Assembly (NCBI GenBank): GCA_017478025.1
Contig: JAFVGZ010000014.1
Span: 107,900-171,899, forward strand
Origin: Prevotella sp.
Lineage (GTDB): Bacteria; Bacteroidota; Bacteroidia; Bacteroidales; Bacteroidaceae
Reading direction: 5' to 3'
Length of the DNA stretch: 64,000 nucleotides
A program made the position numbers and the translations under genes. Of this stretch, positions 12,150 to 63,623 are shown piece by piece. Numbering within the stretch: position 1 is the stretch's first letter; the number at the start of each line of letters is the position of its first letter. The notes under the pieces were generated by a model, which was not told the DNA's origin, made no database searches, and was given only the letters and a program-made list of their open reading frames with translations.

Positions 12150-12280
12150 GAATTATGCATTCTGAATTATGCATTCTGAATTATGCATTTTGAATTATGC
12201 ATTATGAATTATGCATTATGAATTATGCATTTTGAATTATGCATTTTGAATTATGCATTTTGAATTATGCATTATGAATT
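12150..12280. repeat. Nine tandem 14-bp units GAATTATGCATTNT
   Basis: Nine units of exactly 14 bp run from 12150 to 12275 and a partial tenth (GAATT) ends at 12280. Only the 13th base varies (C, T or A). The array reaches into the thioesterase gene and supplies its last codons and TAA stop. Confidence 0.95.
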
Positions 12281-12814: not shown

Positions 12815-12843
12815 CCTCTTGAAATATGTTTTTCCATCTTAAT

Positions 12844-14247
12844 ATGAATAAGCTACTACCTATACTACTCCTGCTCTTGGGCACATTAGTTTCTGTCGCA
12901 AGCCCTAAGAGCAAGGCTGCTGACAACAGCCGCGACCAGTTATGGAAATCGTTCCTCTGTCCTCCAGATAGCATCAAGGTGGGATGTTATTACTATTGGA
13001 TTAACGAGATTGTTGACCCCAAGGGTGTCAAGGCCGACCTGCAATGGATGAAGGACAACGGCATCACGCTGGCATTCCTCGCTACAGACATACGCAATCG
13101 CATAGATGGTGAGAACCCGTGGAAGGAAGAGTACTTCGGCGACAATAAGTTCCAGAGCCCCCTGTGGTGGAAGAATCTGCGTACAGCCCTCAAGACGGCA
13201 GGCAAGCTCGGCATTGAGATGGGTCTCTTCAACTGTCCCGGATGGAGTCAGTCAGGAGGCCCTTGGGTGAAGCCCGGGGAGGCTATGCGCAACTGGACAC
13301 CCAATGGTATCGAAGTATGCAAGACAAAAAAAGGCACCGACGTGGTGTGCAGCCCCTGTTCGCCTGAGGCACAAGGGCTGGAGGTTGACAAACTCTCCAA
13401 GACTCATGTGAAGAAACACTTCGAGGCTTTCTTTGGCGAGATACTGCGTCGCATTCCTGCAAAAGACCGTAAGACGCTGACCACCGTCGTTGTAGATAGC
13501 TGGGAGCGAGGCAAGCAGAACTATACCGACTCTATCTTCGAGAAGTTCCAGCAGCGCTACGGCTATCCTTTGGACTATCAGAACGAAGCCTGCAAGAAAG
13601 ACCTTGACCGTCTAATAGCCGACCTGGTGGCGAGTGAATACATGGGAGGGCTTACAGAGAAAGCCCATGAATACGGGCTTCGCACATGGTGTGAGCCATA
13701 CGCTCACAGTCCTTTCCCCGCCAACAGCGTAACCTATGGCAGCGCCGCTGATGAGGTGGCAGCAGAGTTTTGGGTCGGAGACAGGAAATACCGCCAGAAG
13801 GAGATGGATGCGGCTTTGGGAGCAGCCCGCAAAAGCGGCAAGAACCGTGTGTGGGCAGAGAGCTTTACAGATGGTTGGCCGGAATTTGCGAAGGATGACT
13901 GGAGTTTTGAAAAGCTGAAGCCTATAGCTGACCGCTACTTCCATGCGGGTGTGAATGCCACCATCCTGCACGTCATGATATCCCAGCCGGGTGATGACAG
14001 CAAGCCTGCCGTGAGACCTTGGTTCGGCACCTACTTTGACCGCCGTAGCAAGAATGCCAAAGAGCTGAAGCCCCTTGTCAGCTATCTGCGTCGTTGCAAC
14101 TTCATGCTGCAGCTCGGCAAGCCCTACAACAACGCTACTGACTGCCGCATCATGAATGACGGCACCATAGTACGATTTACGGAAGATTCAAAGTTTGAGG
14201 TAACCTTCCCCAATGGCACCAAGGAAACATGGGACCCGGTTCAATAA
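12844..14247 (+). CDS. Secreted GH106-like (alpha-L-rhamnosidase type) glycoside hydrolase, short form
   Basis: The 467-residue protein starts MNKLLPILLLLLGTLVSVAS, a Sec signal peptide without lipobox. The body resembles the catalytic barrel of GH106 rhamnosidases: GLFNCPGWSQSGGPWVKP, then VVVDSWERG, RTWCEPYAHSPFP, AESFTDGWPEF and GVNATILHVMISQPG. Known GH106 enzymes are usually 800-1100 residues with extra beta domains; here the protein stops after the barrel region, so it is a short form or a truncated relative. The ATG at 12844 is preferred over one at 12826, which would leave almost no leader and put residues before the signal peptide. No SusC/D genes are nearby. Confidence 0.72.
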   Translation: MNKLLPILLLLLGTLVSVASPKSKAADNSRDQLWKSFLCPPDSIKVGCYYYWINEIVDPKGVKADLQWMKDNGITLAFLATDIRNRIDGENPWKEEYFGDNKFQSPLWWKNLRTALKTAGKLGIEMGLFNCPGWSQSGGPWVKPGEAMRNWTPNGIEVCKTKKGTDVVCSPCSPEAQGLEVDKLSKTHVKKHFEAFFGEILRRIPAKDRKTLTTVVVDSWERGKQNYTDSIFEKFQQRYGYPLDYQNEACKKDLDRLIADLVASEYMGGLTEKAHEYGLRTWCEPYAHSPFPANSVTYGSAADEVAAEFWVGDRKYRQKEMDAALGAARKSGKNRVWAESFTDGWPEFAKDDWSFEKLKPIADRYFHAGVNATILHVMISQPGDDSKPAVRPWFGTYFDRRSKNAKELKPLVSYLRRCNFMLQLGKPYNNATDCRIMNDGTIVRFTEDSKFEVTFPNGTKETWDPVQ

Positions 14248-14400: not shown

Positions 14401-14408
14401 TACCTTTG
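14401..14408 (+). promoter_or_regulatory. -7 box just upstream of repeat element A
   Basis: TACCTTTG, preceded by TTG-containing sequence near 14379, ends 20 bp before element A and is followed by no ORF. If active it would transcribe the element. Confidence 0.4.
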
Positions 14409-14428
14409 CACCCTGTGAAGCGAGAAAA

Positions 14429-14884
14429 AGCCAAAATAACAATTTGTTCATTTTTTTGTTAAAAAAGTAACAAAAGCGATTTTTCAACCTTCAAAAAACG
14501 GGCATATTTTCGACCGAGGTCAACTGTGCTCGCAAATAACGCCAAAAAGCGCACGAATAGCTAACGCACTGAATAACAGAGTGTTTGACGGTCCCCCCGT
14601 CAAAACAGAATAACAGAACCGAAAAACGGACCACAAAAATCAGGGTAAAAGACCTGCTTTTACCCCCTAATAGACCTAAGAGAAGGGTCTTCCGCACCAT
14701 CGCGGACACCCTAAAAGACCTGCTTCCACACTCAAAAAATGAATTTTCGGTCTCCGAATTGTTAATTTTCTGTTCTATATTTCCATTTTCTTCAACATGC
14801 GCCACTCTAGATTTCATTTTTTAGTGGAAAAAGTCAAAATGACAATTTGTTCATTTTTTTGTTAAAAAAGTGACAATTTGTAAA
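14429..14884 (+). repeat. Dispersed structured element, copy A
   Basis: The element is flanked by direct repeats that share a 35-36 bp core (14439-14473 and 14841-14876; key pieces AATTTGTTCA, seven T, GTTAAAAAAGT). Inside are a decayed GCATATTTT...AAATAACGCC stem, a hairpin TTTGACGG/CCGTCAAA (14584-14604), and four 22-bp units (14645-14732) built around AGACCTGCT. A conserved block CTCTAGATTTCATTTTTTAG precedes the right end. No plausible protein is encoded. Copies B and C share this order. Confidence 0.85.
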
Positions 14885-14959
14885 TTCGGGTAGAACAGTT
14901 TTTTATGCCCGCAGGGGAAATTATAAGGTCATTTATTTGTGAGTATCGGAAATTATTTT

Positions 14960-22633: not shown

Positions 22634-22640
22634 CCCTTCG

Positions 22641-22756
22641 TTAAAGAATCTGCTATACCATAGCAGACAAAACAACCACCTTCGTTCAAGAATCTGCTAT
22701 ACCATAGCAGATAAAACAACCACCATCGTTCAAGAATCTGCTATACCATAGCAGAT
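22641..22756. repeat. Three tandem 44-bp units with hairpin
   Basis: Each unit carries TTCGTT(C/A)AAGA and the hairpin ATCTGCTAT-ACC-ATAGCAGAT; stems start at 22648, 22692 and 22736, exactly 44 bp apart. The first copy has one stem mismatch. It lies between metY and the patatin gene and ends about 16 bp before its ATG. Triple terminators or RNA-processing sites are possible. Confidence 0.85.
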
Positions 22757-22771
22757 AAAAATCTCCACAGC

Positions 22772-23608: not shown

Positions 23609-23726
23609 CCGTGCATCTCATATCTGCATACACAGAACAGTTCACAGCATCTGGCAGCGGAGCATTCACATAGATTACAGAGGGACACAAAGAATAGATT
23701 TAAGGCACTCTGAACACAAATACGCG

Positions 23727-24182
23727 ATTTGACACTTTGCTCAATTTTTAACAAAAAAATGAGCAAAATGACTTTTTGAAAGTTTCGACTAAAAAATGAA
23801 ATCTAGAGCGAAAGAGGGGTGAAATAATGCGTAAATCATAGTGCAAAATGCATAATTGAGGGTGAAAGTAGGTCTTTCACGTTGTAATAGTAGGTCTTTT
23901 ACCTTGCAATAGTAGGTCTTTTACCGAGTGAAAGTAGGTCTATTAGGGGGTAAAAGCAGGTCTTTTACCCCTTTTTTTGTGGTCATTTTGACGGTTTCCG
24001 TGTTCCTTTTTCGGTCACATATCGCCGAACTTGATGATATACAACAAGTTAGACATCCACGCATTATTTGGCGATATTTGCAGGCGAGGGTGACCTTGGT
24101 CGAAAATATCGCGATTTTTTGAAGATATGAAAATCACTTTTGTCACTTTTTTAACAAAAAAATGAACAAAAGTGATTTTGGC
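23727..24182 (-). repeat. Dispersed structured element, copy B (inverted)
   Basis: This is the same element as 14429-14884 and 49374-49825, on the minus strand. Terminal direct repeats lie at about 24135-24180 and 23730-23772. The GCGATATTT/AAATATCGC stem is intact (about 24071-24114). The 22-bp array has five units (23862, 23884, 23906, 23928, 23950 to 23971), several forming GTAAAAG/CTTTTAC-type stems around YAGGT. The CTCTAGATTTCATTTTTTAG block is at about 23788-23808. It fills the gap between two convergent transcription units. Confidence 0.85.
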
Positions 24183-24247
24183 ATTATCTCCTTTTTCAGG
24201 CTTTTTTCGTCTTCTTCGCAACGGGGAAAGCATCGCGTTCAGCCCCC

Positions 24248-49301: not shown

Positions 49302-49373
49302 GAAATCAGAACAAAAAGACTGAGAAATCAAAACAAAAAAAGTGCATTTCAGAGTCAAAAACGGAAAAACCCC

Positions 49374-49825
49374 AATTTGACACTTTGCTCATTTTTTTGT
49401 TAAAAAAGTGACAAAAGTGATTTTTCAACCTTCAAAATTTGGCGATATTTTCGACCAAGGTTGCCCGAGCTCGCAAATATCGCACGAGAGAGCACGAATA
49501 GCTAACTCGCTGTACAACAGAGTGTTTGATGGTTTCCTCATCAAAACAGAACAAAAGAACCGCAAAAACGAACACCCAAAAAGGGGTAATAGACCTGCTA
49601 TTACCCCCTAATAGACCTACGAGAAGGGTGTTCTGCGCCATTGCGGACACCCTAAAAGACCTGCTTTTACCCCCTCATTTCTCTTCTCGACCCTTAATTT
49701 CGCACTAAAATCGCTCCATTTTGCATTATTTTTCCCTTTTCGCTTCTCTAGATTTCATTTTTTAGTGGTAAAAGTCAAAATGTCAATTTGCTCATTTTAT
49801 TGTTAAAAAAGTGTCATTTTGTAAA
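49374..49825 (+). repeat. Dispersed structured element, copy C
   Basis: Terminal direct repeats lie at about 49383-49415 and 49786-49818 (TTTGCTCATTTT..., GTTAAAAAAGTG). The stem GCGATATTT/AAATATCGC (49442-49480) is perfect. The hairpin TTTGATG/CATCAAA (49525-49545) replaces TTTGACGG/CCGTCAAA of copy A. Four 22-bp units (49586, 49608, 49630, 49652 to 49673) include GTAATAG/CTATTAC in place of GTAAAAG/CTTTTAC. The CTCTAGATTTCATTTTTTAG block is at about 49747-49766. It lies between the convergent tcdA and queF genes. Confidence 0.87.
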
Positions 49826-63490: not shown

Positions 63491-63623
63491 ATTCCCAAGT
63501 AAGAATATGCCAAGTTCCCAAGTGAAAACATGCCAAGTTCCCAAGTGAAAATACGCCAAGTTCCCAAGTGAAAACACGCCAAGTTCCCAAGTGAAAACAT
63601 GCCAAGTTCCCAAGTAACTTGGC
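63491..63623. repeat. 23-bp tandem array GCCAAGTTCCCAAGTGAAAA-N3
   Basis: Five unit starts at 63509, 63532, 63555, 63578 and 63601, exactly 23 bp apart, plus a partial unit before. The last unit ends in CCAAGTAACTTGG, a palindrome. Frames through it give Trp/Leu/Gly-rich peptides (LGTWHVFTWELGVF) that are artefacts of the repeat. Confidence 0.93.

Follow-up and report, generated by a model that had tools for sequence, protein, structure and literature searches.

A modular, MITE-like repeat family in Prevotella sp. and Prevotellaceae bacterium UBA2718, probably mobile and non-autonomous

In a window of 64,000 nucleotides, the whole stretch of Prevotella sp. DNA that was analysed, three copies of a repeat are found that belongs to a family shared with Prevotellaceae bacterium UBA2718. 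The family is probably a non-autonomous, MITE-like mobile repeat, with a modular composition like that of BOX or BrickBuilt. Its copies are dispersed and intergenic, cluster by species and have no conserved coding frame; they are present in one species and absent from the other at some sites, while at least three sites are shared. The original prediction had put forward two options, a non-autonomous mobile element and a family of structured RNAs. The first is the better supported, because of the copy number and the presence and absence of copies between species, even if the searches for transposition machinery described below did not find it in the carriers.

The core of the element is nearly constant in length and lies between two near-palindromic terminal units; it contains a stem, a covarying hairpin and hairpin units whose loop is ACCTA/G. 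The life of such an element might be pictured as follows. A transposase supplied in trans would recognise the terminal units and insert copies into intergenic DNA. Resident copies, once inherited, may then lose or flip end units, and they could swap core segments through recombination.

Architecture of the three window copies

The three copies lie at the predicted places and in the predicted orientations, namely 14429-14884 (+), 23727-24182 (-) and 49374-49825 (+). With approximate edges, they extend over 14424-14890 (copy 1, +), 23717-24188 (copy 2, -) and 49370-49825 (copy 3, +); copies 1 and 3 belong to subfamily A and copy 2 to subfamily B. Over most of its length, copy 1 is 79% identical to copy 3 (E 7e-104) and 69% identical to copy 2 (E 4e-42). 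All three are AT-rich, with 36-39% GC against 50% in the window, and the start-to-start distance of the terminal direct repeats is exactly 403 nt in each of them.

In copy 1, the left terminal unit (14424-14473, +) and its direct-repeat partner on the right (14827-14876, +) are 94% identical over 50 nt; in copy 3, the corresponding units (49373-49413 and 49776-49816, both +) are 85% identical over 41 nt. The direct repeats of copy 2 (23745-23768 and 24148-24171) have 24 nt and 96% identity. Its terminal palindromes are located on the minus strand at 24130-24179 (left, arms 24130-24152 and 24157-24179) and 23733-23770 (right), the palindromic unit having 23-nt arms that are 87% complementary. 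The end units of the whole family are near-palindromes, so that it is chiefly the loop that gives them an orientation. The right terminal repeat was expected to be oriented as the left one. This applies to the three window copies, while in the alignment, read by eye, the right unit is inverted in L042, L046 and L047 of the own genome and in L061, L062, L063, L068, L074, L077, L078 and L079 of UBA2718. Copy 3 also has an inverted end pair of 14 nt (86% complementary); no such 14-nt pair is present for copy 1 among the matches listed.

Between the ends, a long-stem region can be read from the sequence of copy 1 (14500-14543, +). The structural signal of this predicted stem is weak across the family, its stability exceeding that of shuffled sequences only slightly (mean z -1.24). 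The covarying central hairpin lies at 14584-14604 (+) in copy 1, formed by TTTGACGG/CCGTCAAA, and at 49525-49545 (+) in copy 3, formed by TTTGATGG/TCATCAAA with 7 of 8 pairs; the matching region of copy 2 (24008-24028, -) is outside the covarying register and reaches 4 of 8 pairs in its best placement. A 22-bp hairpin array had been assigned to all copies. It is a true array in copy 2 (23862-23969, -; five units, of which a tandem-repeat search gives 4.8 at 23865-23969), whereas copies 1 and 3 each have two units at a distance of 66 nt, with a further stem in the interval: 14643-14665 (+) and a degenerate second unit at 14712-14728 (+) in copy 1, and the stretch 49587-49678 (+) in copy 3. The predicted common block CTCTAGATTTCATTTTTTAG is found without any mismatch in each of the three copies, at 14805-14824 (+; contig position C26:122704-122723), 23789-23808 (-; C26:131688-131707) and 49746-49765 (+; C26:157645-157664). 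Genome-wide, it has 19 matches with at most two mismatches, compared with none for a reversed control.

Some other features of the window may be mentioned. The gene to the left of copy 1 (12826-14247, 473 aa) matches only part of the Pfam model Glyco_hydro_106 and is possibly truncated. Tandem repeats are present at 63492-63615 (23 bp, TTCCCAAGTGAAAACATGCCAAG, 5.4 copies), 22635-22760 (44 bp, 2.9 copies) and 12150-12280 (14 bp, GAATTATGCATTTT, 9.4 copies); stretches resembling the last one occur in many places in genomes G001, G004 and G194 and in a few in G016.

Copy number, host range and occupied sites

Many copies in the genome had been anticipated, and a profile search of the own assembly (G000; 2.93 Mb, 43 contigs, about 85% complete) indeed gives 21 loci, 17 of them near-full copies and four partial or related places. 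The second carrier, UBA2718 (G194, 71% complete), has 47 matches at E<=1e-3 and at least 20 copies. In a sample of 398 genomes of the genus, with two candidates scored per genome, these two match at E<=1e-6 and none of the other 396 does. Among 60 relatives drawn, four other genomes have short and weak matches only; those of G002 fall in a different high-copy repeat close to contig ends. This repeat (L050 and L054-L059 of G002) has a 55-nt stretch in common with the element (79%).

The exact core block was not found beyond the own genome in the genome contig collection. Copy 1 has no match among plasmids and phages (blastn, E<=0.01), and the element patterns were not found in viral contigs. 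Against Rfam, the window yields one tRNA and nothing else at the gathering score, and nine element loci have no match at E<=1. Among the papers listed on Prevotella or Bacteroidetes repeats, there is no account of the element. Literature containing the string AGACCTACT is unrelated among the matches listed; the available portion of PMC4679880 deals with an unstructured heptamer.

At 19 own loci, analysed with ATG-initiated ORFs, the copies sit between long ORFs in varying orientation to their neighbours, and some of them are overlapped by short, unvalidated ORFs. A function as a cis-regulatory leader was rejected because the neighbouring genes show no constant orientation.

Upstream of the UBA2718 gene that matches the right-hand neighbour of copy 1, there is a different array element and no such copy; the left-hand neighbour gene has no match in UBA2718. 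For copy 3, the corresponding intergenic region was pieced together from two contig ends with a 23-nt overlap; it includes an array element interrupted by a run of N, and no part of the element under study is visible there. The L039 copy is absent both from UBA2718, which has about 5 kb of other DNA at this place, and from G001, in which the intergenic region is short. None of these compared sites (copies 1, 3 and L039) is a nucleotide-exact empty site. The sites occupied in both species, at least three, are that of copy 2 (L036/L066), L046/L069 and L032/L064. At L042/L090, possibly a copy inverted at the same place, the flanking genes match on both sides and the region between them is unalignable.

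A tree was made of 37 copies, 17 own and 20 from UBA2718, with four own and five UBA2718 loci omitted. It displays two old subfamilies, and 11 own copies constitute one clade (support 100/99). Species labels are clustered on it, with 3 changes versus about 12.5 when shuffled. L032 belongs to the 11-copy clade and shares its site with L064 of UBA2718, yet the two are not paired in the tree. Because a member of the clade occupies a shared site, homogenisation or conversion, rather than transposition, may be responsible for part of the species-wise clustering.

Core, hairpin units and rival explanations

With CTTCAAAA and AGATTTC as landmarks, 24 of the 37 copies have an internal length of exactly 322 nt and 33 fall within 321-323 nt; the other four have 311 (two copies), 343 and 355 nt. 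Pairwise identity averages 63% and goes down to 47%. The absence of a shared ORF, as originally put forward, holds in that no frame is open throughout: within the 322-nt span, none of the 24 equal-length copies is free of stops in any frame. It has to be qualified for subfamily A, in which one minus-strand frame is long. Eight of the 24 copies, all of subfamily A and including copies 1 and 3, have a stop-free run of 80 or more codons in this frame, compared with 2.9% of frames in a shuffled control. A 108-aa ATG ORF lies in the same minus-strand frame at 3 of the 19 own loci; the one in copy 1 (14491-14817, minus strand) has no Pfam match. ORFs lie inside the element at five of the 19 (L031, L034, L035, L040 and L045), and variability along the 24 copies has no clear three-base period. 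A coding function is unlikely on the strength of the stops, though a young ORF in the minus-strand frame of subfamily A is conceivable because of the length that this frame reaches.

The shared site of copy 2 permits a comparison part by part. Between L036 and L066, all 41 sites that can be compared in the left unit agree, a part of this unit being missing in UBA2718, and so do 57 of 64 in the right unit; for both units, L066 comes first among the UBA2718 copies that were compared. In the central hairpin, only 17 of 46 sites agree. For comparison, the identity at four-fold sites is 646 of 986 in five nearby genes and 70 of 119 in the adjacent one. Such a pattern, with the ends kept and the centre changed, would point to an exchange of segments between copies. 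In the pair L046/L069, the right units differ in orientation, with 30 of 63 sites identical.

The 22-bp hairpin unit is not confined to this element. In its strict form, it occurs 124 times in the own genome versus once for a control; none of 149 other genomes of the genus, a draw to which UBA2718 did not belong, has more than two. In a species-level collection, two adjacent units are found in 49 stretches, 48 from UBA2718 and one from another uncultured Prevotellaceae; among 62 array matches there, motif tags assign 7 to the element and 10 to each of two other types, leaving 35 untagged. Units are enclosed by different ends, in three types by motif tags and in further types by eye. In G000, the short elements L194, L197, L202, L204 and L205 have ends like GACAAAATGGCAG / CTGCCATTTTGTC around the same units, and in elements with such ends the first unit is usually inverted. 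L192/L198, L199/L203/L211 and L048/L196/L200 represent further types with the same units and other ends. Interspersed in the 22-nt frame of L198, L199, L201 and L206 are units of a second type, which have the loop AGTAA (AGAGTAACTTT or its complement); these are also seen in contig C5 of UBA2718, upstream of a Sua5-like gene.

The reading as a mobile element has to be weighed against others, the more so as the locked length and the covariation exceed the needs of a decaying parasite. The same two properties would suit structured non-coding RNAs encoded in many copies; these would be transcribed from a promoter upstream, would fold, and might work as a sponge, for example, by means of the repeated loops of their hairpins. 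We consider this rather unlikely. In the central hairpin, 96.9% of cells are paired versus 86.7% in shuffles and the covariation score is 0.372 versus 0.181 (slid registers, at most 0.16), in a set of 23 of the 37 copies, 20 distinct but related, whose count is biased because most were picked for pairing in that register. Two of the five covariation measures are matched by 27 and 29 of 500 shuffles. The unbiased fold z-score of all 37 copies has a mean of -2.89 at the central hairpin and -2.73 in the array on the plus strand, with 0.12 in the tail and -0.15 in a linker; L061, L072, L073 and L078 have a different strong hairpin at the central place. The correction of imperfect palindromes in DNA could also produce covariation without selection on RNA. 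The strands are balanced or contradictory: one-sided pairs number 35 versus 35 in the hairpin units and 7 versus 5 in the central hairpin, and in the array the z-score favours the plus strand but the energy the minus strand, so that a strand preference was rejected. For the structured-RNA option of the prediction, there is thus a covarying central hairpin, but no strand preference of the unit hairpins. A consensus structure of the whole element was likewise rejected, as RNAalifold returns 6 pairs from all 37 copies, and an Rfam counterpart is lacking in the searches above. As for a promoter, a TAnnTTTGC box, TAnnTTTG being the -7 box of the Bacteroidota, lies just upstream of 4 of 17 own copies (in copy 1 TACCTTTG, 14401-14408, +), which have a similar left flank, and of only 5 of 37 overall.

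The repeated unit itself could be what is used by the host: the units would be putative sites of a lineage-specific protein and the element families their selected carriers. This is quite unlikely in our estimation. Their abundance here, their near-absence from the 149 genomes and their occurrence between different ends are in agreement with it. Within a unit, the outer arms are associated with each other (p 1.6e-10), whereas those of neighbouring units are not (p 0.10), in a set of 195 units selected by arm pattern from 356 core matches with relatedness uncontrolled, while 121 of the 195 have an A.A mismatch within the stem. In the accessible text on S. suis BOX (PMC3049150), moreover, two end types already share one internal module. 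A broader view, in which the family is more than a parasite, having a conserved nucleic-acid architecture and units that serve in several unrelated families as a lineage-specific recognition site read by a putative host or element factor, is unlikely as well, if somewhat less so. Very unlikely is an IS200/IS605- or REPIN-type single-stranded DNA element, with a Y1 transposase that recognises end hairpins of the same orientation. Ends in the same orientation and a lack of target duplication are hallmarks of IS200/IS605, and they recall the window copies, the end units of which are similarly oriented. A target-site duplication, the lack of which also counts against the main reading, was not demonstrated: the longest word shared by the flanks averages 5.14 nt versus 4.58 (sd 0.31) when permuted, for 21 of 32 copies, 11 having been skipped for anchors not found and one right anchor being misplaced. 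In copy 3, the 9-nt word AACGGAAAA is close to both ends without touching both edges. Against a Y1 enzyme, the right unit is inverted in several copies, and PF01797 has no match in the incomplete assemblies of the two carriers, while it is present in 4 of 8 genomes searched. Weighing on the main reading as well, a Y1 enzyme is thus missing from both carriers as assembled, and a larger element with the same ends was not found in the 85%-complete own assembly. Its 37 end-unit matches comprise 35 in known copies or partials and two weak ones of 20-22 nt, in a search that did not recover the lone unit L021.

Comparison with known modular repeats

As a probable mobile repeat, the family is a case from the Bacteroidota in the small group of non-coding repeats with a modular build. 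Two of its traits are open to testing: its near-palindromic ends occur in both orientations, and its internal length stays nearly constant while the mean identity has dropped to about 63%. Furthermore, the use of one hairpin unit in differently ended elements, within a very narrow species group, provides a handle on the exchange of parts between repeats.

Porphyromonas gingivalis, in which BrickBuilt was described, is a member of the Bacteroidales. According to the excerpts available (PMC4596501), the BrickBuilt MITE has 19 copies per genome, is intergenic and of narrow host range, and consists of a leader, a tail and 23-nt tandem repeats with predicted stem-loops, 1 to 22.8 in number, between 12-nt inverted ends of IS5 type. 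The BOX elements of Streptococcus pneumoniae and S. suis, as far as the consulted sections of PMC3049150 describe them, have end modules that flank internal repeat modules, and no transposase of their own. Their boxB number varies, terminal inverted repeats and target duplications are stated, and in S. suis the end pairs A/C and E/F both enclose the same boxB modules. The statement that no described family has such a layout was therefore too strong, as both also put end modules around a tandem array. REP and REPIN sequences with their RAYT transposases are presented in the part of PMC3733652 at hand as multicopy intergenic palindromes.

In these comparisons, the likeness to BOX and BrickBuilt is one of plan. 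With BOX, as portrayed in those sections, the element shares end modules around internal modules and, with that of S. suis, the enclosure of one internal module, here the hairpin unit, by different ends; it differs in its nearly fixed length and in that no target duplication was demonstrated. With BrickBuilt, going by the excerpts, it has in common the bacterial order, a comparable copy number, the intergenic location, the narrow host range and the combination of end modules and stem-loop repeats; it differs in its ends, which are near-palindromic, measure up to 50 nt and occur in either orientation, and in an array of five units in copy 2. As in REP and REPIN, in so far as the cited part characterises them, the palindromes are multicopy and intergenic, while the element is much longer and its carriers are without a detected Y1 transposase. 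End modules around a tandem module are encountered in copy 2 and subfamily B, whereas the units of subfamily A stay apart, and a variable number of internal modules, the trait of BOX and BrickBuilt, is not observed where 33 of 37 copies keep to 321-323 nt. For this reason, and since the resemblance considered is that of the plan, the element would seem to be of the BOX and BrickBuilt kind without being filed as a member of either family.
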